From Polytrichum commune (Eukaryota > Streptophyta > Polytrichopsida > Polytrichales > Polytrichaceae): DNA of 64,000 bases. A program made the position numbers and the translations under genes. This document shows, piece by piece, positions 27,718 to 57,443 of the stretch. The stretch is from NCBI GenBank assembly GCA_950295325.1, contig OX485804.1:6324001-6388000 (forward strand). The letters run 5' to 3'. Numbering within the stretch: the stretch's first letter is position 1; each line of letters begins with the position of its first letter. The notes below the pieces were generated by a model, which saw nothing but the letters and a program-made list of their open reading frames with translations, made no database searches and was not told where the DNA came from.

Positions 27718-27796
27718 TACATAGGGATGGCAACGCTGAAAGGTGAAATTCTCATTGAATCGTCACTGTAATGTGCTTCCTTGTTCATCTTTTTAG

Positions 27797-34275: not shown

Positions 34276-34615
34276 GGTTAAACCAAAATCTTGATAATTT
34301 TGTAGTCTCAACATCAAAACAATTTTTGGGCATATTTCTAGTACTGTGAAAAATGTTCTAGAGGCACTACAAGCATCATTTGAACACCACTTGTAAAAAT
34401 TTAAATAAGGTTGGGACCAAATTTGAATTGCCCAAAATCTTGATATTCATGGTCTTGGCATCAACAAAACAAATTTCCATTTTTGTGAACATATTTTGTA
34501 AACCCTTGGAAACCTTGCAACTTGCAAGTGTGATACTAAGGTCCTTTGAAACCAACCTAAAATGCAATTTTTTTGGTATTTTTAGTCTCGACACCGCCAC
34601 AACAACTTTTCATTT
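34276..34615. repeat. Degenerate tandem repeat, left flank of the large element
   Basis: At least three diverged units share AAAATCTTGATA, a TAGTCTC/GGTCTTGG-ACATCAAAACAA segment and a CATTTT segment. The same family continues right of the element (52,315-52,640). Joining the two flanks with a single ATTT restores the repeat register, which marks this as the pre-existing target. Confidence 0.7.
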
Positions 34616-34643
34616 AACACTATATTCGTTAAATTGAGACTTT
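34616..34643 (+). repeat. Left terminal inverted repeat of the large element
   Basis: 28 bp, reading AACACTATATTCGTTAAATT then GAGACTTT. It is exactly inverted at 52,287-52,314. A second GAGAC follows 14 bases further in. Confidence 0.9.
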
Positions 34644-34739
34644 TTGGGCATTTTGAGACATTCATAGAAATAAGAACAAGGATAAATGGAACACATATTG
34701 GTGAAAGTTGTAAGATGCAAACACTTTGAAGCGGGTGTT

Positions 34740-35010
34740 TAGACCAAGAACCCCATTAATAACTCATATTTGTGATGGTTTAGGGTGGGCAATCGAAACC
34801 TTAGACCAAATTGAAGGGGACATCTTAAAACATTCATATTAATGCACACAAAATATGAGAGCTTGTATGAATATGGTTTAGGTAGGGCAATCCAAACCAT
34901 AGATCTTATTGAAGGGAAAATCTTAAAACATTCATATTAATGCACACAATAAGGCACTCCAAACCTTAGACCATATTGAAGGCAAAATCATGTGACACTT
35001 ATATTATTGC
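34740..35010. repeat. Left subterminal direct repeats of about 110 bp
   Basis: Three partial copies of a unit with GGGCAATC-AAACC, TAGA-C-ATTGAAGG and CTTAAAACATTCATATTAAT then GCACACAA lie just inside the left end, as is common for transposase binding regions. Confidence 0.65.
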
Positions 35011-35129
35011 AAAAAAAACATACAAAGTATGGCACGTAAAATGCATAGCATGCTAACACCACACATCCATTGGATAGTGCGACCCAAAATGTTCTTGCCT
35101 ATGGCCCACAACCCTACGCCTACTATGGA

Positions 35130-35937
35130 CTATCTAGCCTCGGAGACTACCTCTTTTTCTTTTGCTTCATTTTCTTTTGCTTTTTTTTCTTTTGCCTCTT
35201 TTTCTTTTGCTGCGGCTTCTTTTGCTCGCATTGCTTCAACATTCCTGAAAATCTCCGCCCCGCGACTATAGCCATTCTTGGGGTGACCGCCATCAAAAAC
35301 ACATTTTGGATTCCGTCGGCCGCCCGAATTATACGACGAAGAATTCGAATACGATGAAGTGGACTGTCTTGCATTTCTGGTCATGGAGTAGAAACGCTCC
35401 AACTCGACGGACGCACTAGCCCGCATAGGTTTACGGGTGGGAGCAACCTGCAACGCGTCAATGCAAGAACACATGTGTTAGTTTAGGGAGGAAGACCCAA
35501 ACGTGTCACACGTTCAATTTTTAAGTGCGGGATGATTGTAATGCGCGGTTAACCATGTTTTGGGGGGGGGGGGGGGGGTTCACCTTGTCACCGGGGGCGT
35601 TCCCGTCGGAGTTGGCGAGGAGGGGCAAGGCGTCCCGCAAAGGGATAGGAAGGGTGCCACTCTTCGTGGGCCGAGCGTCCATCCGCAGCCGCCGTTGAGG
35701 TGTAATACTGCCGCCGGGCCGAGAGGGGGACGTCCGGACGCATTTGCGATTTATGCCCTTGAGCGGCGACGGGGACGGAGATGGCCGGAAGATTTGCTTG
35801 GGTGGGGGGCTATCGACGACGCCGGCGTCGATAGGCTCCTTGGAGTAGTCGATGGTGGACGCGGCATCGTAGACGGTCTCGTAGAAGAAGCTCCCCAACT
35901 CTGACTCGCTGACGATGTCAATCGAGGGCTCCAAACG
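35130..35937 (-). CDS. Two further exons, probable 3' part of the ParB/MTase/HAD gene or a separate small gene
   Basis: Exon 35937-35584 (118 codons, starts RLEPSIDIVSESELG after TTTTGCTCCAG) and exon 35447-35130 (105 codons plus stop, starts VAPTRKPMRAS after GCGTTGCAG) are both flanked by good splice sites and are phase 0, like every junction of the upstream gene. The second exon ends in a charged coil (AKEKEAKEKKAKENEAKEKE). However, the upstream HAD exon ends at its own stop (36,103). Joining would need an alternative donor such as CCC/GTAAAC about 100 bp before that stop. No known domain. A run of about 18 G bases spans the donor side at about 35,561-35,578. Confidence 0.5.
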
Positions 35938-36037
35938 CTGGAGCAAAAAAGGAAACGAAACAAAACCCAAGGGAGGAGGGTTTGATAGAGCGCGTGAAAA
36001 TCAAGATACATATGAAGCATATATTACACAAAATGAA

Positions 36038-36090
36038 CGGGCGCGCGCGCACACACACACACACACACATACATACATACACATACAAAC
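36038..36090. repeat. (GC)n(AC)n(ATAC)n microsatellite
   Basis: Alternating purine-pyrimidine run GCGCGCGC followed by ACACAC and ACATACATAC, between the HAD exon and the next exon. Such runs can adopt Z-DNA, but no function is shown. Confidence 0.85.
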
Positions 36091-36102
36091 ACACGTAGTG
36101 TC

Positions 36103-39100
36103 TCAAATGAGCTTGTTAAATTTCGCGTGAGATAACAACTCTCTGTACAAATGGTCTCGTGGATCCAAGTATCTCTCGCCTATCGGATTGTTCCTAACAA
36201 AATTGTTTACGGGCAGTCCGCTTTCGCAGAGCGCCTGGAGGTATTTACCAAGGTCTAACAAAAATCGGTCCCGGACCTTCTCGACCGTCCACGTAGGGCA
36301 AACTATGAGGTTGGCCGTCGGGTTCAACATGTTCTTTGCGGCGCTGTCGTCCACCATGAGCGTGTTCTCGCGGGTGGGCCGGACGTCGTAGGGGACGCCT
36401 ATCAATGACGGACGCTGGTCCCAAAAAATGGGCTTCAAGACCTTGAGGTATTGGGGGGAAGCGGGGTTGTTTGGTTTTTTGACGACTTTGCCGTCCGGTG
36501 TGTACAATATTCTATAGGCTTCCTGTGCTAGGACCATGCAGGGGGGCTCGATGCCCTTGAAGATGAACTCCACGACGGCATTGGTGTTCTCGGCCGTCAT
36601 GGAGCTCCACACGACCACCCACCATCGCTGTTGGGCCATCTGGAGGAAGGTCCGAAGCCACGGGCGGAGGTGAACTAGCTTGCTCTTTATGAATGTGGGC
36701 GGCCCGTCGTAATTAGCATCCTCGGGCTTGCAAAAGGGCACCGTGGGGGTCCTAGGGCAATGAACGCATTGGACGAGGACCCCGTTCAGGTCTAACACCA
36801 GGAATCGTTTCTTCGGCCGCGGGGGCGCCGCCGCGCTGCCCTCTCCACTCCTTGGAGAAGAGCGTCGGGGAGCCGCTACGCTATGCTCCGAGCCCTGCGG
36901 ATACGATCGAGAGAAAACGGTGGGCGACTTATGTCATGCTATGTCCAAACGAAGCATTTAAAGAAACGAGTGTTCTCGGTGCAAACACAAAACCATTTGA
37001 TTCATTTTGGAGGGGGTGCAACAAGGGACACAAGAGAGGCAAGAGCATACAACATACATCCAAACACAGGATACAAGTATATAGGAGTAAAAAATGGTGA
37101 TTATATTGTATACAATGCTCTATGTACATCTTGATTGGGGGGGAGCCGCGTTGAACGATGCGTTCAAACTAGCCTACTTCTACATCTAGCAAAAATTAAA
37201 GAGACGGGCCGCCGTGATGAAGACTTCGTCGCAAGCCGGGGGTATGTGGACGAATGAATGGTCGGGGGGATGTGGCGAAGGGCGCGAGTGCCGGGGGGCG
37301 CGAGTGCCGGGGGGCGCGACGTGTGCGTGAGTTTAGGGTAGCTAGGGGACACGACCAAGGCAAGAAGACAAAGACCCAGGGAGTTTGGGTCGACCGACCC
37401 AAACTGAGTGGGGTCAGTGCATTACCTCGCCTTGGTCGCGCCTTGACGACGTGGATGCCGTCACCGCGTGCGCTGCCCCACCTCTGTCACCGCCGCCTCC
37501 GACGACGACTTCAGCCTCAACCTGCTCATGCAAAGGCTGACTGTCAGGCCTTTGTCCCAACCCAACCTCCGCATGCGCATCATGCATTGGTTCATCGACT
37601 GGGTTAGGAGTAGAGGTATCACCAGGCCCTTGCGGGCCTTCAACATCTAACATGGGCTCGTCCACCGGGGTCTGATCGGGGACGGGGTTTGGGTCGGCCG
37701 ACCCAAACCCTGTTGCTTGGCGAGCGTCGCTCTGGGAAGCTGCAACGTCGGCACTGTTTGGGTCGGCCGACCCAAACATGTGGGGGTCGTCCCGCTGGTG
37801 GTGTGGGGGCAAGAGGATGGGAGGCCGGAGCGGCGGGGGTCCCAACGGGCTGGAAGCTCCGGGGACGCGCCAAAGGTTGGGGTCGTCCACCTGCTGGACG
37901 GGCGCGTAAGGGCGGGCGTGAGGCTGCAGCAAATGCGCGAAGCTGAAGGACTGCTGCGTAGCCGGCCGCGGGCGGATATCCTGTGGAGGGAAGCCTGCTG
38001 GCAAGTGAGGGAATGAACTCGGGGGAGCCATCACCAATCCCTGCGCCAGCATGCCCTGGATCACTTGCGTGATCAGGTCCGCTTGGGACGGAGGTGGGGC
38101 CATCGCCCTTTGCCGCTCCTGCTCCAACAGGAGAGCCCTCAACTCCGCGACTTCGTTGCGGACCGAGGGCTCCTCGGCGGCGGCCTTCTGCAATCGGATG
38201 CGTTGCTCCTCGTCCCGGAGCATCTTCGCGTTGGCCTCCTCCACGGTGAGGACCTCGGGTTTCACCCTCACCATCCCGGCGAACGCTGTGGGGGAGGCAG
38301 GATCCGACCTCAGCCTCTTTGCGAGCTCCATGTCGTCCTCGTCCTCGGAGCTTATGGCGATCGTCTCTTCCACCGCATAGTCGCTATATAATTTCTTCCC
38401 CTTCAGCATTCGCCGCTCCCTGAAGGTGGCCGTCGCGTCCCTCGAATACATGTCCTTCGCGTCGGCCACCGTGAGGACGGGCACTAGCTTGCTTTGCGGC
38501 GTGGCAGCCCGCATGGCCTTCTTCCGCTGAGGGGCCTCGGATTCTTGAGTGAATCCTGTTGCCCCTTCCTCCACCTCTCCTTCCACTTTCTCCTCCTCCT
38601 CCTCCTCCTCCTCCTCTTCCTCCTCCGCAACCTCGCCACCTGCCTCCACGGACGGATTGCCCGGATGCAATCCGGTGAGGGGTTCTGGCATTTGAACGGG
38701 GGCCTGCATGACGAATTCGCCTGGGTTGATTCGCCTGGCCATATCCAACGGGTTCTCGCCCCCCTCGACGATCTCTTCGACGTAGGATCCGGGAATCCAG
38801 TCGAGGATGTCCATTCTCTTCGCCAGAGCCTTCTGGGTCCTGTAGAATTGAACATCGGTATCCTCCACATAGGAGTAGATGTTCAACCCAGACATCTGCA
38901 CAATCCAAATCAATAATATTAGGATCACAAATGAAGAATAAGCAAAAATAACACCCAAAACAAAACAAGAATACTTAGTTTGGGTCGAGCGACCCAAACT
39001 GTGCCTGCTCTAGTTTGGGTCGAACGACCCAAACTGTGCCTGCCCCTAGTTTGGGTCGAGCGACCCAAACCAAGCATGCCCTAGTTTGGGTCGAGCAACC

Positions 39101-42100
39101 CAAACCAAGCATGCCCATAGTTTGGGTCGCTCGACCCAAACCAGGCATATAGATCGACGAGGTTAGTTTCTTACCATTGCTGCAAAAATCGGTTTGGAGC
39201 CCCCGAAGACGTTGAAGATGAAGTCCCCCCTCTTCGTGAGGGTCCTCATCATCCGCAGGTAAAAATCCATCCGCAGCTCATCCGCGGGGTAGTTGGCGTA
39301 CTTCGCCTCGTCGTACAAGCTCCTGCTGGTGCCCAACCCTTCTGGGACTTGGAAAAGCTTTTCCATCCGGGCTATAGGATGGTTTGGCACCTTCAGCAGC
39401 TCAGCTTTGTACACGAAGTACAAGCACAGCACACAGACTATCTTCGTCTTCTTGTCTTTCAATGAGCTGTACGCCCCCTCCGCCGGTGCAGCAACGTAAT
39501 GAGATTTTGAGACGGCGTACTCTGGTTGCAATTTACGCACGATCTCGTACACCTGCTCCGCCCTCCTGTCCTCGACAATCCACAACCAGACGTCGACCTC
39601 CCTGAATTTGGGGCTGGCGTAGTCCACAAACTTGGTGAAGAACGGCTCGTAAAACGGGGTGCTCATTGTCCCCTCGAATGAGGCTCCAGGAATGTTCCTG
39701 AAGTCTATCATTCCGAAGGGGAAGCGGTCCCCAGCTGCAGTCCTGATCGCCATCCTGGACTCAGAGCCCGGCCAACCTTGGATCTTTAGAGGTTCGAGGG
39801 AGACCAAGTTGAAGTGAGCTTCGCCCTCGAACCTGACGATCTTCTTCTCCTTTATAAAGTTGGAGAAGGCACGCGCGGAGTGTTCGGGAAGCGCCCGGTT
39901 CCTCCCCCCCTTCACGAACTTGGACCTGAGGAAGTCGTCTCCCGCCTCCCTCATGAGTGCCGCCATGGACGCACTGGTGAACTTGTACTCGGCTTTGAAT
40001 GCCCTCCAGTGCGCCTCGTCAACCTCTCCGTCCACGATGAGCTTCTTCTCGGGCACCAGCTTGTGCAGATCTTGGACAATGGTCGTCTTCTTCTTCCTGT
40101 TCTCCGTCCATTCCTTCAAGGTGTAGCATGAAGGGACGAAGATCTTTGGCTTCGTGAAGACGATCTTTGGGTGAACCCAGCATCTCTTCGCCGTCGGCTC
40201 CACGTGGAGGATGTGGGACGCCGCCTTTCCCACCTCTGTCTCTGAGAGACCTTGAAGAGCTCTAAAGAACTCCCTCACTAGTGGCTTCATTTGCTTGAAG
40301 CGCGCAGTCTGGTTATACAGAATACCGGTGTCGGGATCGATGAGGTCTCCCGTCTCGTGTTTTTCGAAGACAGTCTTCCATTTTGTCCACACGGAGTCAG
40401 ACGCTGTGATCAAGTAGATTTCTCCTCTTAGCTCGTTATATTTTTTTTGCTTGTGGCTAGCATTGTCAATAGAGGAGAATTTATTGATCATCTGGTATTT
40501 GAAGTCCTGAACATGAAGTCAAGAACATATGTTAGAGAACACATCATGAAAAAAATGGAACAGCAGTTTAAGACATGCCAATAGTTTGGGTCGATCGACC
40601 CAAACTTTAAATCTGATGAAGACTATAAGACATGCCAATAGTTTGGGTCGATCGACCCAAACTTTAAATCTGATGAAGACTATAAAACATGCCAATAGTT
40701 TGGGTCGATCGACCCAAACTTTAAATCTGATGAAGACTATAAGACATGCCAATAGTTTGGGTCGATCGACCCAAACTTTAAATCTGATGAAGACTATAAG
40801 ACATGCCAATAGTTTGGGTCGATCGACCCAAACTTTAAATCTGATGAAGACTATAAAACATGCCAATAGTTTGGGTCGATCGACCCAAACTTTAAATCTG
40901 ATGAATCCAAGAGTTTGGGTCGATCGACCCAAACTACAAAACTTGGGAAGAAAATAAAACAATACAAGAGTTTGGGTCGATCGACCCAAACTTACTCACC
41001 TCCCATTTTGGGTTCTTGTCTTTTGCATTCTCCCTTTCCTTGGGCGGCCTGCCGTAGAACTCCCACACATCCCTCGAGGCCATTATATTCCTAATCCAGG
41101 ATGCCTGATACGCCCTCTTTTTATTCCCCATGTTGAAAAACCTGGAGATGTCACTGAGGACGGTCTCGTTGTCCGACCAAACCACCAGTGCCTTCCATAC
41201 CTTCAGCTTCTCCTTCTGGTTGTTGGGGTCGTCCCATTCAGTCATCAGCTGGATTTTTTTGGAGGCCTCTACACTGTGCTGGCCGTCAATCAGCCAGAAA
41301 TCTCCTTTAGAAATCGCCGGCCACATATCAGCCGTAGGCATTCTTTTTAGCCCCTGGGGCATCACGACAATTGTCTGCCTGTCGTCCTTGAACTGCCCTC
41401 CCAAGATTTGAGCGACCATCCAGTCGACATAGGCATCCTCCTTGGCTCGGACACACTTTTCAGGTGGCGCAAGGTGGCATTGTGCAATGTTCACCTCGAA
41501 CTTGAAGTCCCTGCCCATGAAGAAGCAATGGAGGCATTTCGTCTCAAAATTGTCGTTGATTTTTTGAATTTCCCCAGCATCAACCTCTTGGCCAGGCTTG
41601 GGCATCTGCAACTCTGGCGAAACTGGCTCGGTGGTCATGACTGATGACTCTCTTGCCCTTTTCGACGGGGTCGTCTGCCGGCTTCCGGACGGGGTCGTCA
41701 GCCGGCTTCCTGAAGGAGTTGGCGTCTCGCTGTCAGCCGGAGTCGAGGTAGTGCTCGGTCTTCTAGAATCTGCCGGAACCGCCAGCGGAATCCTCACAGA
41801 TTGGGGTCTGGAGGAACCTGCTCCTTCTTCTGTCTTGGCCTTCCGCCTGACAGGTTGTTGCGTTTTTGGTTTGCTTTGCAACGCTTTATTCAAAACCGTG
41901 ATCGCTTGTTTCAGTTTTGTGAACCTGCTAGCGACCTTGGTGTTCGATACAGTGCCATCTATGAAGATGGTCTCCGGTTTTATTATCTCCGGGTCAACGC
42001 ACGTCTCCTTGGCATATAGGGGGTCGAAAGCCTCGGAGAATTGGTGCATGAACATATGCACGTTCTGCACTGCGGAGTTCTCTAGAATAACGTCAACGTG

Positions 42101-42349
42101 CTCCCCGAGAGCTTGGACGGAAGCAACCTCCCATCCCGTCAGCGTTGCCCAGGTGTGTTGCTCGTGGGTCCCCACTTTCACCACGAACAAGAGCTTGTAC
42201 TGGGAGGCTTTCACAACCTGAACGGACCACGCAAAAACAATCCCATCCTTTGGGACGTATGAGTCGTCCTGTGGAGTTTCGTACTCCTCCCAAAGGTAGT
42301 CTGGGGCGAGCATGAACCACCTCTCTCCAGGTCTCTTTTTAGTGGCCAT
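36103..42349 (-). CDS. ParB/DGQHR-like + DNA methyltransferase-like + HAD (FCP1-like) fusion protein
   Basis: Exons 42349-41000, 40506-39175, 38895-37426 and 36894-36103, all phase 0, predict about 1,647 residues. Residues 295-445 resemble ParB/DGQHR domains (WLIDGQHSVEASKKI, DGQHS at 355-359, then ISRFFNMGNKK). Residues 690-930 have the layout of beta-class N6/N4 amino-methyltransferases: FGMIDFRNIPG where DPPY is expected (DFRN at 718-721), then RTLTKRGDFIFNVFGGSKP (FGGS at 884-887) and, across an intron, SYVEDTDVQFYRTQ. The catalytic and SAM motifs deviate (DFRN for DPPY, NVFGGSKP for DPFxGSGT), so enzymatic activity is doubtful. Next come a long linker with a poly-Glu run, then an HAD/FCP1-like domain (LVLDLNGVLV at about 1,417-1,426; motif IV MVDDSAAKN). 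The first Asp is kept and the second is Asn, a common plant variant. The ATG directly follows TTACAG. Introns 1 and 2 are packed with the 20-bp palindrome. GC is higher than in the flanks. Confidence 0.72.
37384..37776. repeat. Three palindromic 20-mers (centres AC, GC, GC)
   Basis: TTTGGGTCG-AC-CGACCCAAA at 37,384-37,403 in an intron, and two with centre GC at 37,688-37,707 and 37,757-37,776 inside exon 3 of the fusion gene. In the exon they encode the repeated GFGSADPN-type peptide. Presence in coding DNA suggests the site spreads or is tolerated independently of context. Confidence 0.9.
38979..39140. repeat. Palindrome cluster in intron 2 (five copies)
   Basis: Five 20-mers spaced about 35 bp apart, with centres AG, AA, AG, AG (one with an arm mismatch) and CT. 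Spacer sequences (GTGCCTGCC, CAAGCATGCC) differ from those of other clusters. Confidence 0.92.
40585..40990. repeat. Palindrome cluster in intron 1 (eight copies, centre AT)
   Basis: Eight perfect TTTGGGTCGATCGACCCAAA sites. The first six are 57-bp tandem units with spacer TTAAATCTGATGAAGACTAT. Every centre is AT, so each is a full perfect palindrome. Frames on both strands here are repeat artefacts. Confidence 0.95.
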
Positions 42350-42376
42350 CTGTAAGTCCAGAAACAAAATTGTTAG

Positions 42377-42481
42377 TTTAGGTCGATCGACCCAAAGTTT
42401 TTCAACTTGGATTGAACATCAGTGCGAATTGAAGGGTGCTCTACTGGCCATCATGAAGAGGTTTGGGTCGACCGACCCAAA
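42377..42481. repeat. Two palindromes in the 5' leader of the fusion gene
   Basis: 42,377-42,396 has one arm mismatch (centre AT); 42,462-42,481 is intact with centre AC. They lie 28-130 bp upstream of the ATG on the minus strand. Confidence 0.88.
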
Positions 42482-42741
42482 CCCAAGCCTCGAATAGCCT
42501 AATCTTATAAGAATTATTGGTAGAGTTCGGGTCTTAAGAATATGAATATATTGAATATTGTGTAGTGGTCAAATTATCCAACATGAGAGCAATTTTCGGT
42601 GACCTTCTAGAGCCGCGCTGGACGTATGTGGACATGCCAGCAAATATCAGACGATTTCAAATTATAGCCATTTGAATATAATTTCTTGTTGATGGTGGGA
42701 AGGATGTTTATCTTGGGATATTGGATTTGTAGGTTGCAGAG

Positions 42742-43017
42742 TTTGGGTCGAGCGACCCAAACCAGCTGCAGAGTTTGGGTCGCTCGACCCAAACCAGCTG
42801 CATAGTTTCGGTCGAGCGACCCAAACCAGCTGCATAGTTTGGGTTGAGCGACCCAAACCAGCTGCAGAGTTTGGGTCGAGCGACCCAAACCGCCTGCAGG
42901 TTTTGGGTCGTTCGAACCCAACCAGCTGCAGAGTTTGGGTCGAGCGACCCAAACCGCCTGCAGGTTTTGGGTCGTTCGAACCCAACCAGCTGCAGAGTTT
43001 GGGTCGGTCGACCCAAA
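42742..43017. promoter_or_regulatory. Palindrome cluster upstream of the fusion gene (nine copies)
   Basis: Nine sites about 32-33 bp apart with spacer CCAGCTGCAGAG. Centres are mainly AG, with CT, TT and GT, and some arms are mutated (TTTCGGTCG, GTTCGAACCC). The position, 0.4-0.7 kb upstream of the minus-strand start, suggests a regulatory or protein-binding array. This is inference from position only. Confidence 0.6.
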
Positions 43018-43279
43018 CTAGCTGCCCAGTTAATTCTTTATGGGTTTGGGGTTTTATATAGAGGTTTCGGGCGTCTACCGAAACCGTAGTGTTTCCATAT
43101 TCACCCATAATGTTTTACGCTGCATATACAATGCTTATACATTGTATATGCATGAAGACCCTAAAGGCTAAGAAGCAGGTTATGTTGAATGAGATAAGTT
43201 ACCTTGATGCAAGCTCTACCAATCTGATGTTGTTTTGCGAATAGGTTTTGCGAATCTGATTCTTAGAATCTGATTACAC

Positions 43280-43900
43280 CTGAACACTCAGATATCACTA
43301 ACACTCACTAGAATTCCACTCACTAGATTTCACAAACAACTCACACACACTTCAAAACAACAAAAGCACTCTGAAATCACTACAACGGCGCACTTTAAAA
43401 CAAAAACACACTCCTAACCAACAAACACACTCTGAAATCACTCAATGCTCGTATTTTTAAACAAAACAACACTCCTAAACAACAAACACACTATGAAATC
43501 ACTCAATGCGGATACTTTTACACAAAAACACTACCCTACTACAATCACTCCTAAACCCTTACAAGAAGAAGAGAGAATGAGAGACGGCGAGAAGAATGAG
43601 AGAAGAGAGAAGGAGAGTATGAGAGAATGAGAGAATGAGTGTAAGTCGAAAGGCGCCGCTTGCAGTCCTAACCAACAAACACACTCTGAAATCACTCAAT
43701 GCTTGTATTTTTAAACAAAACAACACTCCTAATCAACATACACACCCTGAAATCACTCAATGCGCATATTTCTACACAAAAACACTTCCCCAACCCCTAA
43801 ACACACTCTACAATCACTCCTAAACCCTTACAAGAAAAAAAGAGAATGAGAGAAGAGGGTTACAAGAATCAGAGAGGTGGAAAGGAATGAGAGAGAGAAT
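43280..43900. repeat. Degenerate CTGAAATCACTCAATGC tandem repeats
   Basis: About five copies of an approximately 60-bp unit: ACACACTCTGAAATCACTCA, ATGC, TATTTTTAAACAAAACA and ACACTCCTAA. Purine-rich GAGAGAATGAGAGA stretches follow at 43,569-43,636 and 43,839-43,900. Non-coding. Confidence 0.75.
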
Positions 43901-44064
43901 GTGGGAAGCGGCGTTAGGCGGAGGCGCCGCTTCACGACAAGGTGAGAAATGAGGGAGAGAAAGGAGGGAGCTTGGCGCGGAGGGAGTTAAATAGACAAAG
44001 CGAAGGGTCGCCATGGGACCCAATCTGGGCCATGGGAGCGCCCCGAGCCCATCTACGGCTCACA

Positions 44065-44222
44065 AGCCTCGCGGGCAGCCACCCTGCCATGTGTCAACAC
44101 CTTATTGGTGATGGTGGCTACCCGAGGCTTCTGGGGTGCACACTTGGCGCCTAGCGGCCACCCGGCCTCCTGCCCGCCAAAGCCCGGCCCCGGCCTTCTA
44201 AGCCGCTATCTATAGCGGCTTA
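44065..44222. other. GC-rich hairpins, including a 24-bp palindrome
   Basis: AAGCCTCGCGGGCAGCCACC at about 44,065 pairs with the inverse at 44,115-44,133. At 44,199-44,222 lies TAAGCCGCTAT-CT-ATAGCGGCTTA, 11-bp perfect arms around two bases. This is the same geometry as the 20-mers but a different sequence. Confidence 0.8.
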
Positions 44223-44744
44223 GCCCAAAAATCGAAAAGCAACATAGCCTAAGGTATTGCACATAATTAACACCATCACCAACTCTGATTTTAATGGTGT
44301 TCAATTCAATGGTCCCGCGTTGGAATTGCTTACATCATAGAATGAATCCATTATTTGTTTTAGTATTTGAATAATGTAGTCATATGGAGTAAGATGAGAG
44401 CGATACAAAGTCTAAGAGGAGTATTTCATAAGTATATTGCAATTCTCAATGCAATTGCACGGTGCAACAATTAAAATATGGTGACAATTTACATGGTCAA
44501 GGGTTTAGTGCTCTCTATTGTAATTTCTATAACCCAAGTTCGTAGAAGATAAGGCTCTAGCATACAATGGATATTACCCACCCAAGTAGCATTAAATTCA
44601 ACATTTATATCAGTACATAGAAGTTGACATTTGAAGTACATGGGAGATACACAAAGATTACAAATTTATCTACTGCAACCCCATGGAGTTCAACATCATA
44701 TGAAGCCATTTAAGCATTAAGCTTGATGTTCGATGATCCCTCCA

Positions 44745-44777
44745 ACCTAAACCCTAAACCCTAAACCCTAAACCCTA
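44745..44777. repeat. Interstitial plant telomere-type repeat (CCCTAAA)n
   Basis: Four to five perfect CCTAAAC heptamers in tandem, the reverse of TTTAGGG. Inside the large element, between the palindrome cluster and the foldback. It may mark an old repair event or act as telo-boxes. Confidence 0.95.
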
Positions 44778-45548
44778 CACACCGCAAGCCTTAAATGAAT
44801 GGCACATAAGGTTAAATGACAGGGCCTTAGTGCTTGTAGTTTCCAATACAAATGTATATTGTCTTGACAACATCCTAATCATATGTGCTCACGATCATGT
44901 CAACCAATATTAAGTTATAACAATGTCTGTCTAAAAAAAAGAGTATAATAACTTGATTATAGTATATATGATCTTCATACTAGATTTCAAATGGACTTCA
45001 TGATAGTTTCAAACATCCTTGAAAGAGTGAACTAAAAAGTCCTATTCGTGATGGAATTCCCATTAATGCCTTTCACATAGGTTATCCATTGCCACACTTG
45101 TATGTTGGACAATGGATCAACGTTGTGTGCACACATTACAAACGTCACATGTTCTTTTAAAGCTTTTCTCATTTTATTGTTGCAAATTGAAAGTTGGCCA
45201 ATTTATTCAAATTTTTCATGAGATCAATTCCTTGTTTTCAATGTATAAGTCCTCATGTGAAAGTCTTCATAATGACATAAACTGTAATTATTGTATTTGG
45301 TGGCTTTGGCTATATGAAGTTTCATAATGTTCCCACATATATTGTCAAGATATTATTTGAAATAAACCATAATATTTGAGTCCAAGTAGAGTAATATCCT
45401 GGAAGTACATAATTTAATTTGTATGCAATGCATCAATGTGAAGTTGTGGAGGATGGGTTCTCAAAATCACTTATCAAATATCATTTTCTTCCCAATGGTG
45501 CATGTCATAGGCACATAAAATGAGACAGTCTACCCCCATCAACAATAA

Positions 45549-46145
45549 TTTTAATTTTTTTGACAAATATTGTTATAGGATATTGGAAGATATATTGGAG
45601 ATCTTTCTTTATCATTTTTTTTTCATATCCTTACTAACACTATATTCAAACATGTAACTTCAACATATTACCATAGATAATATTGAGTGTTTGAGTTTAC
45701 ATTTGATGTTACTTACTTTCATAGTGGTATTAGTATTGAGTAGATGCGTTCGTATTTATTGTATCAAACTCTAAATATGTTATTTATTGTAGGGACACTA
45801 CAACACTACATTTTTTGTCAAACATTTTTTTAAACAAATAAAGTTAACTACATTTTTTTGACAGGTCAAATCACAAATAACTTAAGTTACAAAACCCAAC
45901 TACACAAAATATGATATCTAGTGTTTGATACCCTATATACAAGCGCATGCACTAAATATCAATAACCATATGAAAGTCAGTGACATAAAATGTAAACTCT
46001 CACAATAAGTATCATCTATGGTAATATGTAGAATTTACATGTTTGCAATTAGTGTTAGGAAGGATGTGAAAAGAAAAAATTTACGTGAAAGTAGAAGGTA
46101 AGCGACACATTTATGTGTAACAATAATTGTCAAAGATTTAAAAAT
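45549..46145. repeat. Foldback repeat with about 250-bp arms
   Basis: 45,549-45,800 is inverted at 45,890-46,145 with about 75-80% identity. Shared blocks include TATTACCATAGAT, TTGACA at the outer end and CATATCCTTACTAACACTA versus CACATCCTTCCTAACACTA. Likely a MITE nested inside the large element. Target duplication not determined. Confidence 0.75.
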
Positions 46146-47138
46146 TAATGTTGAGCATAGTAGAGTGGTAACAACACTAAATATAATGAAACACACACCC
46201 CATATTTTGTGTAGTTATTTCATCACGGAATTAGCAATGTCATTTGATGGTTGGCGCCACGAAGAGCCACGAAGGCCACACATTAGTAAACTTGAAGTGA
46301 ACTTCAAGATGGATTCAAATATCATTAATAGATTGAACTAAAACGCCACATTGGTAGTTAGTATCCCTTTAACAACGTCCACATACGTTCCTCATTGCCA
46401 CACTTGCATGCGAGATAATAGAGCAATGTTCTAGGGTTTAGGGTTTATGGGAGACAAATAAATAATTTTATTCATCACGACAATGGCCTCAAGCCTTGGA
46501 AACCCTTTCATAATTGCAGCCTCCAAATGGCCCAAACCCCACCTAAATAGGTTTACACTTGAAAGCATTGAATGGAGTTAAAATATTGGTTAAAATATAC
46601 CGTCATGACACTTGAAAAAATTAATGTGGCCGCCACCCTTCCTCCCAACGGCGTATGTCATATCCACAAAAGACAAAAAAAAGAAGATTAAATATCATAG
46701 ACTAAGTCATATGACGGCTGGGGTATCAGAGGGGCATTGATAGATGCGCATTTTCCACTATAAACAAAAAACGGGGAATTATGTTAGGAGGTTTTGAAAT
46801 AATCAAAATATGAGAACAAGGCGGGAAAGGCATCCAATGAGGAAGTCCGAGAAACGGAGGTGGATAGTATAAAGGGACGCACCCCCCAAAATTCAGTCCT
46901 TTTTTGCTCTTCTCCCACTTTTGAATTCGTGGAGAGAACTCTTAGTCGGAGCTATACTTCAAGGTTCGTGCATGCTTCCGTTCATTAGCACTTATCCACA
47001 GCATGCAAGTTCATGAGCACCTATCCACAGCATGGAAGCCCACCGTGAACTTTGCAATGAGCTCAAAATCAACACATTTCGGATTATCCGCCGCATTATC
47101 CGCCGGATTTTGAGGGTTTTAGGGTGACTCTTATCAGG
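46146..47138. other. Non-coding spacer within the large element
   Basis: No gene recognised. Small GC-rich patch from about 46,790 and a duplicated CACTTATCCACAGCATG/CACCTATCCACAGCATG at 46,990-47,035. It leads into the 79-bp array. Confidence 0.4.
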
Positions 47139-48504
47139 TTTGGGTCGGTCGACCCAAACCCCTCCGCTAGTGTGGGCGGGTTTCAGCCTGACCCTGATCA
47201 TCTGAGGAGTCCATCTTGCCCCTCAAGGTTTGGGTCGGTCGACCCAAACCTTTACTCTCATGAGGCAGTTACTAGGGTGGACACGGAGTCCATCCTGCCC
47301 CTCAATGTTTGGGTCGGTCGACCCAAACCCACCCTCACATGGGGCAAGTACTAGGGTGCGCATGGAGCCCATGCTGCCCCTCAATGTTTGGGTCGGTCGA
47401 CCCAAACCTATCCCCTCGTGAGGCAGGATCTAGAGTGGACAAGGAGCCCATCCTGGCCCTCAAGGTTTGGGTCGGTCGACCCAAACCTATCCCCTCGTGA
47501 GGCAGGGTCTAGAGTGGACAAGGAGCCCATCCTGGCCCTCAAGGTTTGGGTCGGTCGACCCAAACCTATACCCTCATGAGGCAGGTACTAGGGTGGACAC
47601 GGAGTCCATCTTGCCCCTCAAGGTTTGGGTCGGTCGACCCAAACCCACCCTCACATGGGGCAGGTACTAGGGTGCACACTGAGCCCATCCTGCCCCTCAA
47701 TGTTTGGGTCGGTCGACCCAAACCTATACTCTCATGAGGCAGGTACTAGGATGGACACGGAGTCCATCCTGCCCCTCAAGGTTTGGGTCGGTCGACCCAA
47801 ACCTATACCCTCATGAGGCAGGTACTAGGGTGGACACGGAGTCCATCCTACCCCTGAAGGTTTGGGTCGGTCGACCCAAACCCACCTTCACATGAGGCAG
47901 GTACTAGGGTGCACACGGAGCCCATCCTGTCCCTGAAGGTTTGGGTCAGTCGACCCAAACCCACCTTCACATGAGGCAGGTACTAGGGTGCACACGGAGC
48001 CCATCCTGCCCCTGAAGGTTTGGGTCGGTCGACCCAAACCCACCTTCACATGAGGCAGGTACTAGGGTGCACACGGAGCCCATCCTGCCCCTGAAGGTTT
48101 GGGTCGGTCGACCCAAACCCACCTTCACATGAGGCAGGTACTAGGGTGCACACGGAGCCCATCCTGCCCCTGAAGGTTTGGGTCGGTCGACCCAAACCCA
48201 CCCCCACGTGAGGCAGGTACTAGGGTGGACTTTGAGCCCTTCCTGCCCTATAAGGTTTGGGTCGGTCGATCCAAACCTTATCCCACAGTGGGCATGTACT
48301 AGGTTTGACCCATCCCAGTGCCCTTACATAATTTGGGACGGTCTACCCAATCCATCCCCGCTGTGTGGGTGCTCTCTGTGATGAGCCTGAACCCATCTTG
48401 CGAAAACGTTTGGGTCGCTCGACCCAATTTATCCCCACTGTTTGGATGGAATCTGGATGACCATGATCCCATCGTGCCACAAGGTTTGGGTAGGTCGACC
48501 CAAC
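47139..48504. repeat. 79-bp tandem array carrying the palindromic 20-mer (centre GT)
   Basis: About fifteen units of 79 bp, each with TTTGGGTCG-GT-CGACCCAAA followed by a CTCATGAGGCAGGTACTAGG segment and CCATCCTGCCCCTCAAG, then three more-diverged units. Almost all centres are GT; one site has an arm change (47,940, CAGTCG) and the last four decay. It ends about 200 bp before the DUF7869-like gene. The repeated 60-codon frames are artefacts. Confidence 0.96.
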
Positions 48505-48697
48505 CCCAGACCCACCGTGTGGATGGGCTCTAAATGATAGTGTGTCCACTGGCCAACCCAAACCTTTACAGAGCCAATGGCATAGCAGTCATACGAACAT
48601 GTATGAACACTGAGTATTTGCAATATTTTTTATATAAGATGGTTTTTGTATTATTCGATTGGAACCTACAATTTTTGTGGTTTCTTGATAAGGTTCA

Positions 48698-51600
48698 ATG
48701 TTCATGTGTGTAGGCAGAATGAATGGGTTTAGTGAAAGAGGGGATTGGTCATCTGAAGATATGGCCACTTCGCCATCTGCATCTGAGGATGAGATAGACA
48801 TTGTCGGGGAGGATACTTTGGCTGACAGTGCAGATGAAGATCATTTGGATATACCTTCGCCTTCCGTACCGCAATGTCCCATTGCTGAATGTACGGGACT
48901 CTCAAGGGCTTCATGGGTGAATTTGGAGGTGGTACTTCTTAATGACAGTGGAGTTGCTGTGGCAGAGGGGATTTGTCGCAACACCCATCCACAAGATTGC
49001 ATTGATGAAAACCCGCTTGGCACCGAGGACGTTGGGGTTGTCATATTGGAGTCGTTCGTTCATTCCGAGGTGGATCCCACTCATAGGTTCTCCCTCCGGA
49101 GGTGGCCATTGAGGAATGTCACGATTGATGGAGTTAGTTTGTATGAACATGAGCAACGACACTTGCAAATCGAAAAAGAGCAGCAATCAAACATGCGGCC
49201 ACGCAAGGGTCAAAGAAAGTACGATACATTGGCACGTCCTGCTCCGTCTGCAACTGATTGTAAACGTCAAAGGTTGCTCGGGGAGGAGTCCATTAGAGAA
49301 GTTGCCACAAAGGATTGTTGTGTGCATCGTTGTTGCCAATTGTTTCCCCGGGATAAATTGAAGGCCATCCGCGAAGAAATGTGGCTTGGTGATTTCCGTC
49401 TAAGATCCACCAAAAAACTTGATGTGCATAGGGCGATACATGTGAATGGGGCGGGTCGCAAGGTCATCACCATTGAGAGCATAGACGTGTGTTGCAAGGC
49501 ATGGTACACCATTCATGGTGTGTCGAAAGCGGACTTTTATAGACAAGCTGCTTATGCCAAGGAAGGCCGCTGGTCCCGTCACCATGGGAACGTGGGTTTA
49601 AAGAAACCTAGGGAAACAACAAGGCAAGCAACGGCCACTCTAGCAACCATCATTGTCCCGCTTGCCGATGCAATGCCGCACAAAACACGCACACTCACAA
49701 CTGGTGAAAAGGTTGTGGAGAAAGTTCTTCCCACAGGCACAAAATGGAAAGACATATTGTTGGATGTAAATGCAGTTGGCGAGAAGATTGGGTTGGAGCC
49801 AATTTCATCGTCAAAATTGAGTGCAATCAAGAAAGCAAACTTCAGCGAATACATTACAAAAAGACGAGGGGACAAATTTGCAAGGTGCTCTAATTGCGAG
49901 AAGTTGAAGCGCCTTCGGGATGCACACACGATGGGTACCGAGTCGTTTGCGGTGCATCAATTGAACTATTTCAAGCACGTAAACATGCAAGAGGCACACC
50001 GTAATGATTACTACACAAATAGAGCTTTGTCCATCTCCAGGCCCTTGGAAGTTCTTACGGTCATCCATGACAAAATGGACCATGCCAAGACAGCCTCCCT
50101 ATGTTTTGCAAAACGAATCAAGGCCACGGATGGATTTTTTAAGTTGCATGTATCGGTTACAGGTGATCTTCGAAACAATGTTATGACATACCCTAAATAT
50201 TGTTGTATTTTATTCCGTGATGTACTTGAGAACATTGATTCATTCAAAACGATTTAGACATACATAGGTACTAATGACTTTGGGTTGGCATTGTAGGAAT
50301 GATTGCACATGGACACGGTGATGTCAAGTTTGCCCATTATGCTCTTGATTTGTATCCAGCAAATTCAAACCACACGATAGGGTCATTTGCAAGGCTTTTG
50401 CGTGATTTAGAGAAACCGCCAGCCTATTCTTCAGGATTGTTATTTGAAAACACGGGTTCAACACCTTTATATGAAGCAGTGATGGATGGAAAAGATGTAT
50501 GCTTGCATTCGTTGCCCGAACCACCCAGTGAACCGGTGATAGCCAAGAAGTTGCCCCCCACTTTGCGTGTCCAATTGGACAATTGTGCCAAGGACAATAA
50601 AAGTAGATATGTATTTGCATATTGGTCGTTGTTGGTTGCGAAAGGCATTTTCAAGGAGGTTTTTGTGTCCTTCCTATTGGTAGGCCACACGCACGACGAT
50701 ATTGATGCATCATTTGGACGGTGGAGCATGAAGTTGCGGGAGGAGGATTTTCCTACAATCCCGTTATTGATGAAGTCGTACATGGATTTGGAGAACGTTC
50801 CCGTCATCCCCCATATGATTGAGGAGGTGCCAGACTTCAAGGCATTTATAGAACCTTATATTCGAAGTGGAGCTCATCGATTGATTGGCCATACGAAGGC
50901 ACAACAATTCCGGTTCTACATGCGTGACGATGGTGTCCCGGCCATGCAATACAAGTTGTTGTGCACGACACAAGACTAGAGCCCGCCAGAGGGTCTCCTT
51001 GTGTGGTGCGTGGATGCGGATGGGAAGACCATGTTACCGGATGGAGAGCCTAGGCCTTGCAAGCCAATAGCCATGAAGAATTTGGAGGATATTTTGAAAG
51101 GTATATCAGGCTTCATTCAATATTGGGAGAGTTTGAAGATAGCGGATGTTGGCGGATCATGTTGGCATCGTTATGGGAGTTGGATACATTATTGGACACG
51201 TGTTCGTGCGGCCTTGGCAGATCTCCACCAAGATAGCCCTCATACTTTGAGGCACGGATTTTGGCCACAAACTCGTATCGATGTACAAGCTTCGGAGGCT
51301 AGTCTTTTGAGTAATGGAGAGGTTCGCGAGGAGTTTGATATGGACGACCATTACGTTGGGCCTGCTAGTAGTCGTCCGCCACCATCTTTCCGCATTGCAG
51401 TGGATTGTCATGAAGGTTATATGCTCATTTTGCGTCCTGGAGATGAGACATATGCAAAGCCAGTGTGGGTGGCAAGAGCTTTGTCCAATCAAAATTTTGT
51501 ATCTTCCAGCCCTCATTTTCGACAAATACAAGTGGAGTACTACCGACCGACAGCACGGAATGAAGATGTTGTTCGGCATTATACAGGCTGGGATACAAAC

Positions 51601-51783
51601 CAACACTTTCGGTGGAAGGTGGATTCTGAGCACGGTCCATCTTGGGTAGATACAGATTCCATATTCATAGCATGGAAACCACGGAAAAATCATAGTGGAT
51701 CAGTGTCCATCCCTCAAAAGTACATAACTTTTGCAAAAGACAACCTTGCTCGGATCGGAGAAGAAGCAACCCACGTTGAATGA
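48698..51783 (+). pseudogene. DUF7869-like transposase candidate with a premature stop
   Basis: Exons 48698-50162 and 50297-51783 (donor ACAG/GTGATC, acceptor TTGTAG) join to give the FFKLHVSVTGMIAHGHGD segment. The frame is open for 715 residues to a TAG at 50,977-50,979, then open in the same frame for another 267 residues to 51,783, so a single nonsense change splits an otherwise intact protein of about 983 positions. Residues 160-330 are basic with Cys/His pairs (CCVHRCC; CSNCEKLKRLRD around 400). The core has LDNCAKDNKSRY (Asp at about 583) and GHTHDDIDASF (about 618-628), which I know from a eukaryotic family I believe is named DUF7869. The Asp/His spacing is compatible with an RNase-H-like nuclease, hence transposase candidate by inference. 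Translation could start at 48,698 or 48,719. The 79-bp palindrome array lies directly upstream. Confidence 0.75.
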
Positions 51784-52286
51784 GAAGTTGGTAGGATTGT
51801 GTTAGCATGATTATAGTGTAAACTGTGATTCGACGAATATATATTACTCATATGTGTGCTCCTCAAACTTGGGGCAAAGTTTGGGTAGAACTTGCGAATG
51901 CTATATTGTTTGGGGTTGGATGAATATCCATTTACTATATTTCAATACAATTGTGAAGTTCATTTTTTTATTAAGTTTGGGACTAAATTTTCCATTGAAG
52001 AAAAATGCATTTATTGCATGCACTTTGTATGTTGCAATGTCTATATTTTATTGACCATGCTATTAATAGAAATCATTTTATATGTTTTTTGGGTGAAACT
52101 AGTTTGGAGTGCTCTACCCAAAGTGTTTTTGTTGATGAAGTTGGTGTTGAGTGCTCTACCATATGTGCTTATGTCCACACATAATAGATTTGGGATATTA
52201 GAACATATAATATATTTGAGATTGTTCGCAATATAGTTTCGGAACACGGAATGTTGTTTGATCCATATATTAATTTGAGACTAGAG
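51784..52286. other. 3' flank and right subterminal region of the large element
   Basis: AT-rich, non-coding. It has a duplicated GAGTGCTCTACC(C/A) motif at about 52,106 and 52,149. The bases just inside the right TIR form GAGACTAGAGAAAGTCTC, a small hairpin. Confidence 0.5.
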
Positions 52287-52314
52287 AAAGTCTCAATTTA
52301 ACGAATATAGTGTT
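52287..52314 (-). repeat. Right terminal inverted repeat of the large element
   Basis: Exact inverse of 34,616-34,643, ending ...ATATAGTGTT, followed by the ATTT target duplication. Confidence 0.9.
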
Positions 52315-52640
52315 ATTTCTTGGCAACTTCCAAAAACCTGGGGAGGAGTTGGGCTCACTTGGAGACCACTTGAAAAAACTTGAAATCTAGTTTTAACAAA
52401 CTTGTTTTGTAGACTTGTAGTCTTGGGACCGAGACAACAAAATCCCATTTTTCAAACACCTTTTGGAAACCTTGGAACGCGTTGTCGGTGTCATTTGTAG
52501 ACCACTTGAAGCAAATAAACTTATGTAACTTTAACCAACTTCACCAACTTCACAATGCCCAAAATCTTGACATTGAAATTTGAAACATCTGTAGCTACAT
52601 GAGAAACCAAAGATTAAGCCATGTAAAAAAATATGCAAAT
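52315..52640. repeat. Degenerate tandem repeat, right flank of the large element
   Basis: Same family as 34,276-34,615: a GTCTTGGGACC-GAGACAACAAAATCCCATTTTTC unit and CCCAAAATCTTGACATTG at about 52,558. It forms the other half of the insertion site. Confidence 0.65.
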
Positions 52641-52954: not shown

Positions 52955-55145
52955 TCAAGGGCAGAATGTGACTTGGTAATTGCTGGTCGTGGGGCACCCA
53001 TACACATGGTTGGCGTTGTCGGTGGAGTAAGAATACGCGTCGGGGCACGCAGAGGCAAATTTCTCGGTGCCGGAAGTTGCAACAGTTCCTGTGCCGTCAG
53101 TGTTGTAGCAACCGTCTCCCGGGGCACCGGTGAGCGTGTTGGGTGACGTGCAGAAGGAGTTGAGGTCGCTGATGGAGCAGGTGGGGTTAGTGCATGTGGT
53201 TCCGCTTGGGTTCACACCGCCGGCAATCGATGTCACACTGATCTCCATGCCGAGGTTGTATGCATTCTGTAGAATTTGCGCAATTGAAACTTCCAAATGA
53301 TTAGCTTTTCCACGGGAGGGTCACATAATCTGCACTAAACCATCCAAGTTACCAGAACATGCATGTTTCTAGCCTAGTGTGTATATATGTGTATCCAGCA
53401 CAGATTACTTCGTAGTTCACTTAGGTATATCTTCAAGTTGTGATGAATTGTATATGTATAACCAATTGACTGTTCACCCATCTACAAGCCCGGCTGATTC
53501 TACAAGCGATGACGAGGTTGTTTGCATTCTGCAGTGTTCGTGGAAAGTCTATTTGGTTGGCCTTCCTGGGGACGACACAATTAGAACTCAATCATAGTTA
53601 GGATTACACAGAATTTGGAACTCACACATCCAGCCCAGATGGACATATGATGAATATCTCTCACGATCGTGAATTGTCCAAAGCCTACAATAGAGAAGAG
53701 AATGGGCAACAAGCTCCAGTAACATCAACCGCAACCCGGTGTTATGATGGGAATGCTCTCGGCGTGGATAGATAATGCATTTCCATCATTTCCACGTGTA
53801 TCGGCCTCCTGGGAGGATGTGACTCGAGTACAATTAATGAGGAATAAAGAGATCTCTCAATCAAAACAGCAGAAAGAAACCATCACTCATGCCGGTTGTT
53901 CGACACGTCAACATTATAATATACATGTTTGGACATCTTACCACGTTGCTGATGTCATAGGAATCCTCGTTACCAGAGTTGATGGTGAACTCCGCGAGAT
54001 TTGCCTGAGGCTTGGCATTGTTCCCGGTTGTGGTTCCAGATCCCTCTTTGGCTGGGTACGCCCAGATTACACCTGCGGTCCAAGTAGAGCCCACATCAAG
54101 GGAATACGAGCCTCCGTTGGCACTCAGATTGTCGAAGCACGCCAATGCGCTATTGTTATCCGTCTTGCACGCATTCAAGTTCTCGGAGCACGAATTCACA
54201 ATGTTGATCGTAGCAGCTGCACAATATTATACACAAGGCAAGCGATATCTTGAATTAATAGGTACCTTAAGGCTAGTGTTAATCAATTTATCAATTGTGC
54301 AACATCTTCACGTCTACCATGCCAGTGACTCATGTGAAGGATGATCATCAAGACTTGTTCGATATATGCTTCTGATATCGAGGATTTCCATTGGATCATA
54401 TATGATGCAAAAACTACCATTAACTTTTGACATCAAATCATGGGACACTCTCTGCTATAAAAGAATATATGGAGGCCACTCTACATAACAGAACACATCA
54501 ATTTTAACGCCACAATAAGTCAATTAGACAATGTCATACACGTGTAAGTCAAAACCAATACAACATCGCAGTCTAATTAATCTCAAATGACTCAAATCCA
54601 GTGTTAGACCCATAACCATTTGGTGCATAAGGTGGAAATCTGGTATTGGGGAAGACGACGCCTTCTACTTAGCATGACCCTCTCCTTCCCTCAATCTAAT
54701 TTGTGGACCTGCATGATCGAAGTGTCTAGAGAAGAGGGCTCCAAAATGGGTATGTACAGTAATCCCTCTCGACCCTTCCGGACCTCGAAGATTAATTAGT
54801 CGATAACCATTTGACACACGAAATGGCGTTCCGGCACTGGGAAATAGGATTAACTTCCCCATAATGCAACCTCGCCCTCCCCCATATATCTTCAACCTCG
54901 ATCATCGATCTCCAAAGTTAGAGGGCCTAGATCTGGTTGTGGTCCAGACATTATCCAAAGGGGAGGACGCCAAAGCAGTTATGTCCATTAACCCCGCTCA
55001 AGCCTCCCCTAACGTGTAACCAAGGGCTTCCAAAATTGGGTAGAAGTAACAAACCATGAATAGAGGCAGCCATCACCAACGCCATAACAGCACCCGCTTG
55101 CAAGCGCAGGAGGGCAGCGGCTCTCTCAGAACGTGCCATCGCCAT
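52955..55145 (-). CDS. Secreted small thaumatin-like protein (3 exons)
   Basis: Exons 55145-55055, 54216-53942 and 53266-52955 join in frame to 225 residues. Exon 1 encodes an N-terminal signal peptide (MAMARSERAAALLRLQAG, then hydrophobic AVMALVMAASIHA), with likely cleavage before ATINIVNSC. The mature part of about 195 residues has many cysteines and thaumatin-family hallmarks: TINIVNSC start, VGSTWTAGVIWA, NLAEFTIN, DSYDISNVNAYNLGM and CPDAYSY...VYGCPTTSNYQVTFCP end. These proteins (PR-5 family) are secreted and often antifungal or stress-induced; this is a small-type member. Splice sites are canonical. An upstream in-frame TTG at 55,190 is not needed. Two dead exons of a paralogue lie at 9,960 and 24,663. 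A TATA box lies 138 bp upstream. Confidence 0.9.
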
Positions 55146-55282
55146 CTTCAAGCTTTGAAAGAGCACTAGATTGAACCGAGTGATTTGCAAACTCCTCTTG
55201 ATATCAGAGTCGCGTGGTAAACTTATGAATGCACAAATGATCTACTTGAAATGGTTGTGCAGAACGTACAGGATGTGAGGAC

Positions 55283-55290
55283 TATTTATA
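55283..55290 (-). promoter_or_regulatory. TATA box of the thaumatin-like gene
   Basis: TATAAATA on the minus strand, about 138 bp upstream of the ATG, in a good position for a short 5'UTR. Confidence 0.65.
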
Positions 55291-56869: not shown

Positions 56870-57124
56870 TAGTCGTATGCTTGTGCATGTAGCAAGTGTG
56901 AAAATGAGCAACATGAATATTTATAGTAGCTGCAATTGACAGTTGTCTGTACTACGTACAGTGAGTCAGTGACATGAGATGACATCCTCAAAAGTTAAAC
57001 TGACGTCAATACACTTATTTAAATAGGTATATTACAGTATGTTATGTTGTCTTTACAGACACTGGCACACATCAGCCAAATTTGGGGGATCGTCAGAGGC
57101 TGGAAATTGTGCAGACACGAAGAT

Positions 57125-57350: not shown

Positions 57351-57443
57351 ACGAAGATTTTAAGTACATAGGGATGGCAACGCTGAAAGGTGAAATTCTC
57401 ATTGAATCATCACTGTAATGTGCTTCCTTGTTCATCTTTTTAG

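Follow-up and report, generated by a model that had tools for sequence, protein, structure and literature searches.

Element boundaries and copy number

The window analyzed here, a 64,000-nucleotide stretch of the genome of the moss Polytrichum commune (C2:6324001-6388000; the genome searched comprises 407.8 Mb in 64 contigs), contains a 17.7-kb element at positions 34616-52314 that is bounded by terminal inverted repeats (TIRs) and carries a putative transposase gene with a DUF7869 domain, a second gene whose predicted product ends in a HAD/NIF domain, and dozens of copies of a 22-bp palindrome. The left TIR (34616-34643, plus strand) and the right TIR (52287-52314, minus strand) are the same at 28 of 28 bp as inverted copies. 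Both have ATTT on their outer side, the left (34612-34615) and the right copy (52315-52318, abutting the right TIR) of a 4-bp target site duplication (TSD). Direct sequence comparison thus bore out the perfect inverted ends and the ATTT duplication described in a first-pass annotation of this DNA. That annotation had also taken the flanks for two halves of one older repeat, and indeed the joined flanks (252 nt) match at 93%, over positions 55-252, an uninterrupted paralogue of the target at C2:6395243-6395442. This paralogous site has one ATTT and lacks the insert. The annotation had proposed to look for empty sites in related accessions, and an unoccupied paralogous one is present in the same genome.

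The exact 28-bp TIR occurs 330 times in forward and 342 times in reverse orientation genome-wide, against none for the reversed control. Tabulation from the first 100 of these 672 places gave 24 TIR pairs of 14.4-18.5 kb. We read 23 end pairs of family 1, the family of the window element (17 of 14-18.5 kb, window included, one of 4.8 kb and five of 29-42 kb), which apart from the window were drawn from those first 100 places, and found a perfect 4-bp duplication in 22 of them, with no fixed target sequence; the chance of a single 4-bp match is about 0.004. The sole failure was the L069/L070 pair, whose ends lie 36.9 kb apart and may be mispaired. The element is therefore a TIR transposon with 4-bp TSDs, present at high copy number. 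The proposed genome search with the TIRs uncovered a high-copy family, and where the annotation had made its claim depend on the existence of other copies or empty sites, both were found. The copies are mosaic: the window and copy 9 (L079+L080) are 89-93% identical in the ends and the transposase and 73-75% identical in the region of exons A-C of the second gene.

The DUF7869 gene

The putative transposase gene lies on the plus strand and consists of a first exon region at 48698-50257 (open reading frame and splice model, with approximate splice ends) and a second exon at 50299-51783 that carries the DUF7869 domain. The domain scan of the window confirmed the DUF7869-like gene of the first-pass annotation (E = 2.5e-41 at 50299-50979). 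An in-frame stop (50977-50979) breaks the second exon in the window copy; many other copies have an open frame of 502 aa. Genome-wide there are 1490 candidate places, and all of the best 150, which were scored, passed the cut-off; the domain was absent from 14 of 14 control genomes. When DUF7869 places were compared by eye with exact TIRs, 10 of 11 sat 1.34-1.35 kb inside the TIR and one 2.3 kb inside. Also by eye, three acidic positions are kept across three DUF7869 lineages, with one row deviating at the second and several rows not reaching the first. Between the window copy and copy 9, the transposase pieces gave omega values of 0.10-0.30. The DUF7869 protein would be the transposase, cutting at the TIRs and generating the 4-bp duplications. 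No viral relatives of the transposase alignment were confirmed in IMG/VR.

The fusion gene

The second gene diverges from the transposase gene. Our model for it, on the minus strand, places GT-AG introns of phase 0 between four exons and predicts a protein of about 1650 aa: exon A (41000-42349), with a DGQH motif; exon B (39175-40506); exon C (37426-38895), acidic and of low complexity, with two palindromes in its coding DNA; and exon D (36103-36894), with a HAD/NIF domain resembling phosphatases of the C-terminal domain (CTD) type. Exon D matches PF03031 with E = 1.7e-14 and 54.3 bits, against a curated cut-off of 21.8, and the domain scan of the window placed the NIF/HAD match at 36103-36798 (E = 6.6e-13); TIGR02245 and TIGR02251 also match exon D, both under their cut-offs.

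The first-pass annotation had called this a ParB/MTase-like/HAD fusion gene, and of the three parts only the HAD domain withstood the library searches. Exons A, B and C gave no ParB or methyltransferase match in Pfam, NCBIfam, PHROGs or PDB sequences, and no Pfam match of any kind at E up to 5; for exon B, NCBIfam gave no match at E up to 10 either. Among six exon A sequences Pfam yielded no ParB domain at E up to 10, the only match being Rhomboid_N (E = 0.32). What the libraries did return was unrelated, and the ParB and MTase labels were dropped: the top PDB matches of the fusion exons were ACPI-S (0.003) and CCPI-S (0.0057), accompanied by a cytochrome trimer construct (E = 0.0031), with no stretch passing by itself; PHROG 15511, of unknown function, matched a low-complexity stretch (E = 0.0072), and PHROG 3356, a "transposase", matched exon B of a related family, family 2 (E = 0.086). 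A GQ(H) motif can be seen by eye in exon A, as DGQH or NGQH in five of six aligned rows and as NGQY in L107. A viral origin was considered and rejected: exons A and B, used as single queries that reach close relatives only, had no confirmed relatives in IMG/VR, and exon A had none in phages.

The annotation had further suggested testing whether the DUF7869 gene, the fusion gene and the palindromes always travel together, and the three do recur together. Of 1229 genomic candidates for exon B the best 95 were scored, and 36 of these have one of the best 150 DUF7869 places on the right side and in the right orientation and distance, compared with a mean of 0.24 and a maximum of 3 in 500 trials of random placement. 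In the 24 tabulated TIR pairs, both genes were listed in at least two, one gene in 11 and neither in 11, and these co-occurrence figures are lower bounds, given that only the best 95 of 1229 exon B and the best 150 of 1490 DUF7869 places entered the comparison. Exact palindromes were present at 15 of 15 fetched exon B loci, with 2-15 at each.

Substitution patterns point firmly to purifying selection on the coding exons, the genes being kept as proteins. Omega was 0.18 for exon D between the window copy and copy 9; for exon B it was 0.049 between lineages 1a and 1c of family 1 (synonymous divergence, dS, 1.67), and within family 2 it was 0.194 between sub-lineages 2a and 2b and 0.13 between 2a and 2c (dS 1.87). 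For exon A, the window and copy 9 gave proportions of synonymous (pS) and nonsynonymous (pN) differences of 0.786, which is saturated, and 0.119. Copy 9 has one stop in exon B and one in exon C. Among the window, L079+L080 and L109, exons A and B are near synonymous saturation (pS 0.67-0.79, pN 0.08-0.12), while the transposase and the HAD exon are lightly diverged. Cassette exchange could account for this, or else selection for nucleotide divergence, such as an escape from small RNAs.

Downstream of the HAD exon, also on the minus strand, there is an open reading frame at 35521-35970, within a 2.2-kb block that copy 9 shares at 89% identity, and a small one at 35130-35474 that looks coiled-coil-like by eye and would be a separate gene or an alternative last exon. 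Both families have charged, coiled-coil-like small frames (again by eye) on the downstream side of their HAD exon (window 35130-35474; L082 8074-8457), possibly a third conserved gene.

The palindromes of family 1

The palindrome of family 1, GTTTGGGTCG-NN-CGACCCAAAC, has 9231 exact occurrences genome-wide and none for the reversed control. The window holds 39 copies with at most one mismatch and 47 with up to four, all 47 within the element. The "dozens of identical palindromes" of the first-pass annotation are therefore right in number and not in full identity, as the 10-bp arms are fixed and the central 2 bp vary. In 50 first-order resamplings of the element, any 9-NN-9 palindrome was present in at most one copy, compared with 34 observed.

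Fifteen of the 39 sites lie upstream of the transposase gene (47138-48505), mostly in 79-bp tandem units, and eight lie 5′ of exon A (42376-43018), in 32-bp tandem units and as two single sites. The fusion gene itself, by motif and repeat matches, contains eight in intron A (40584-40991, mostly in 57-bp tandem units), five in intron B (38978-39141, in 35/36-bp tandem units), one in intron C (37383-37404) and two in the coding DNA of exon C (37687-37708 and 37756-37777). The palindrome is thus found both singly and in tandem units that are unrelated to each other. The site nearest to the left end of the element is 2.8 kb away from it, and for the right end the distance is 4.0 kb. In three hand-chosen aligned segments of the window and copy 9, the arms agree at 193 of 200 positions, the centers at 14 of 20 and the background at 704 of 1177; the palindromes anchor this alignment, which biases the arm identity upward. 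Lineage 1c (L109) carries this palindrome too.

Related families carry palindromes of their own

Family 2 is another DUF7869 lineage. Over the compared stretch it shares 51% identity with the window, and it has a related TIR (ATGGGGATATTAACTAAAATGAGAC) that is imperfect and about 25 bp long. Of 21 loci matching L022, 19 do so over almost the full 3.4 kb at an identity of 98.9% or more, and L017 and L019 are partial, at 89-98%. All five copies whose flanks we read by eye have 4-bp duplications (ATCC, TTGT, AACC, TACC and CACA), and one copy, at C1:48452758-48477718, measures 25 kb. Its fusion gene is homologous, with four exons in matching order (exon A 22% and exon B 29% identical to the window) and a HAD domain (E = 3.8e-11, 43.4 bits). 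The palindrome of family 2 is CCCACGGGTG-NN-CACCCGTGGG, with 644 exact occurrences genome-wide and none for the control. It is found in the 5′ region, introns A, B and C, exon C and downstream, at positions that match those of family 1, and the family-1 palindrome was absent from the 9.3 kb of family 2 that were read. In exon C the palindrome is kept in coding DNA while the encoded peptide varies (FGSxDPN in the window and L109, HGCSPVG in L082, HGRSPVG in L108). As these sequences compare, the palindromes are clearly conserved within a family and different between families at matching positions. A broken copy, L017, has decayed family-2 palindromes at 119-1339, and at L081 9106 there is a palindrome lacking the 2-bp center.

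Within family 2, sub-lineage 2b (about 84% identical in exon B) retains the family palindrome, with 10 of 10 matches in L107. In sub-lineage 2c (66-69% in exon B) the palindrome is CCCACGGGCG-NN-CGCCCGTGGG, which differs from that of 2a by one matched base change per arm; L108 has it in 5 of 5 matches, and L110 in exact form in 13 of 22, along with two mixed sites and others with different mismatches. Genome-wide, exact arms are of the 2a type at 644 sites and of the 2c type at 177, with 32 mixed (18 + 14), compared with 298.7 mixed sites expected if the arms were independent, an expectation that treats as independent sites in copies that share descent. By these counts, 2c evidently changed both arms together. 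A change from CG to TG/CA can arise by deamination of methylated cytosine, and on that route mixed sites would come first.

Family 3 is an older DUF7869 lineage (L009-L016), in which a gene with a DGQH motif stands head to head with the transposase. Its palindrome, GGGTGAGGCA-NN-TGCCTCACCC, has 26 matches at up to four mismatches in L101, three of them exact, and 23 exact occurrences genome-wide. The ends of this element were not found. We regard family 3 as weak support for family-specific palindromes.

Relation to known transposons

By comparison with published descriptions, consulted in part, rather than by sequence, the transposon is probably a member of the Sola class. Sola elements are described as having a DDD transposase, 4-bp TSDs, TIRs of 11-1124 bp and lengths of 2-9 kb, with some over 15 kb (PMC10741241); they occur in the moss Physcomitrella as Sola1 (PMC10741241; PMC9033089), and the described Sola2 families have AT-rich 4-bp TSDs (PMC3627910). 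The present element shares the 4-bp TSDs (22 of 23 pairs in family 1, 5 of 5 in family 2) and the TIRs, but the parts of these descriptions consulted mention neither a HAD fusion gene nor family-specific palindromes. The statement of the first-pass annotation that no described plant DNA transposon has such content was too strong at the level of class, as Sola fits what could be tested. Among the open-licence PMC papers listed by our searches, judged by titles and the beginnings of abstracts, we found no report of the gene pair with family-specific palindromes, and no matching system among giant moss DNA transposons, moss anti-silencing or palindromic sites in plant DNA transposons; no paper on DUF7869 was found there.

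A parallel to the palindromes is offered by VANC, from the VANDAL elements of Arabidopsis. According to the sections of these papers that we consulted, VANC recognizes motifs that are specific to a family, are arranged as tandem repeats both within introns and ahead of the transposase gene (PMC5735166) and co-evolve with the protein (PMC5735166; PMC10398659), and some VANC genes bear an extra captured domain, Ulp1 (PMC13317346). The likeness lies in the arrays of family-specific motifs in introns and upstream of the transposase, to which exon C adds sites in the present case. The differences are that VANDALs are Mutator-like elements (MULEs), while our transposase exons match DUF7869 alone above cut-off and no MULE domain, and that VANC proteins have no recognized relation to the fusion protein. 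For VANC, moreover, binding and hypomethylation are reported in the parts consulted, whereas here both are predictions. Fungal DNA transposons with TET/JBP dioxygenases (KDZ, hAT7, IS3EU and others) likewise carry an additional gene with a possible action on epigenetic marks (PMC12730594); they differ, in the portion of that source consulted, by TSDs of 2, 3, 6, 7 or 8 bp, and the domain scans of our element gave no TET/JBP match.

A proposed model for self-recognition and anti-silencing

We infer that an element-encoded protein, most likely the HAD fusion protein made from the divergently oriented second gene, binds the 10-NN-10 palindromes as a symmetric dimer, that the spread of these sites over both 5′ regions, the introns and one exon would let the element recognize its own family, and that the tethered protein, probably through its CTD-phosphatase-like tail, would keep the genes of the element active against host silencing in the manner of VANC. 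The whole, a giant cut-and-paste Sola-like transposon with self-recognition and anti-silencing by its own dimeric protein, is a reading by analogy to which we give slightly less than an even chance. More tentatively, and at odds well below even, we propose that these giant families came independently by private addresses in their DNA, each lineage's protein reading that lineage's own 22-bp palindrome, and the protein and its dozens of dispersed sites switching together.

The ratio of observed to expected CpG is at best a hint of low methylation. It is 0.76 for the whole element (0.85 in the fusion gene, 0.61 in the middle, these being the extremes among its parts), 0.50 in the left flank (stretches of 0.35, 0.42, 0.60 and 0.67) and 0.69 in the right flank. 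The element is less depleted than the left flank and similar to the right, and a young age would equally account for the mild depletion.

Several observations weigh against this model. Library searches recognized no DNA-binding fold in exons A-C. The canonical catalytic motif of HAD domains is D-x-D, and here, with DLNG in the window and DVNG in family 2, the second aspartate is missing; such a domain may bind rather than cut phosphates. One palindrome is common to three diverged fusion lineages of family 1. The coupled change of the arms in 2c is partly accounted for by shared descent, and the switch is incomplete: when positions are compared by eye, at least five of the 32 mixed sites go back to a single inherited site, which in 2c copies follows DUF7869 at a distance of about 0.15 kb. 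In family 3 a scan of two L101 frames (8 kb read) detected no HAD domain, and the palindrome is weak, with a near-constant center and a place in an array of about 60 bp. VANC motifs, as the consulted part of their description has them, are short and of one orientation, not 22-bp palindromes (PMC5735166). Finally, family 2 has sites near its ends, one with one mismatch about 0.2 kb from the transposase-side end (L018 3191) and another, with two mismatches, at about 0.6 kb from the opposite end (L082 8485), as a role in transposase binding predicts.

Such a role has a precedent in En/Spm, where subterminal repeats serve as transposase-binding sites. If the palindromes were sites of this kind, required for transposition, the near-end sites of family 2 would be explained, and so would the fact that two well-supported DUF7869 families, and weakly family 3, each have their own palindrome. 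The palindromes of the window, however, are mostly central, the outermost 2.7 kb of the element on the left side and 4.0 kb on the right side containing none at up to one mismatch, and we judge this explanation distinctly unlikely. Transcriptional autoregulation, with the palindromes as operators for a factor of the element and silencing unaffected, agrees with the position of 15 of the 39 sites upstream of the transposase and of eight upstream of the fusion gene. It has to contend with the 16 inside the fusion gene, in its introns or its coding DNA, and with a number of sites that is high for promoter control alone; we think it unlikely.

The remaining alternatives appear weaker. The palindromes could be by-products of tandem repetition, or sites of a host factor that the element exploits, since many of them sit in tandem arrays whose centers are partly homogenized. 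This is very unlikely in our view, as unrelated units of 32, 35, 57 and 79 bp carry one palindrome, single sites in exon C and the introns have the same arms, and the families differ at dispersed matching sites. A system like ParB/parS, in which the protein would load on the palindromes and spread along the element as a clamp, has in its favor the clustering of the sites and the weak GQ(H) motif of exon A (five of six rows). With no ParB domain detectable in the six exon A sequences in Pfam at E up to 10 or in PDB sequences, it is the most improbable of these readings.

Self/non-self discrimination and evasion of silencing by transposons are understood in molecular detail in few cases, with VANC of Arabidopsis as a clear plant example. 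If the fusion protein does counter silencing, transposons would have invented proteins for sequence-specific anti-silencing a second time, without homology to the first, in a different superfamily and probably among bryophytes. A readable 22-bp site that differs among related families also makes recognition specificity and coevolution directly testable.

Other features of the window

Inside the element, an inverted repeat at 45615-46077 has two 178-nt arms, 80% complementary and 107 nt apart, and resembles a miniature inverted-repeat transposable element or a hairpin-forming sequence. On either side of the element lies one member of a degenerate repeat pair (24644-29168 and 53923-58848), with pieces up to 92.8% identical. 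A resistance-like gene of the nucleotide-binding leucine-rich repeat type (NB-ARC/LRR/RPW8) is located at 5420-8689 and marks the DNA as that of a plant, its LRR part made up of about eighteen 72-bp repeats that match at 87%. Outside the element, at 12088-15093 and 18999-22694, the window also holds a second gene with a NIF/HAD domain (E = 8.6e-10) and, at a distance of a few kb, a tnp2 transposase gene of the CACTA type that matches Transposase_21 (E = 3.2e-62) and DUF4218. More than one DNA transposon of this genome may have acquired a HAD domain.

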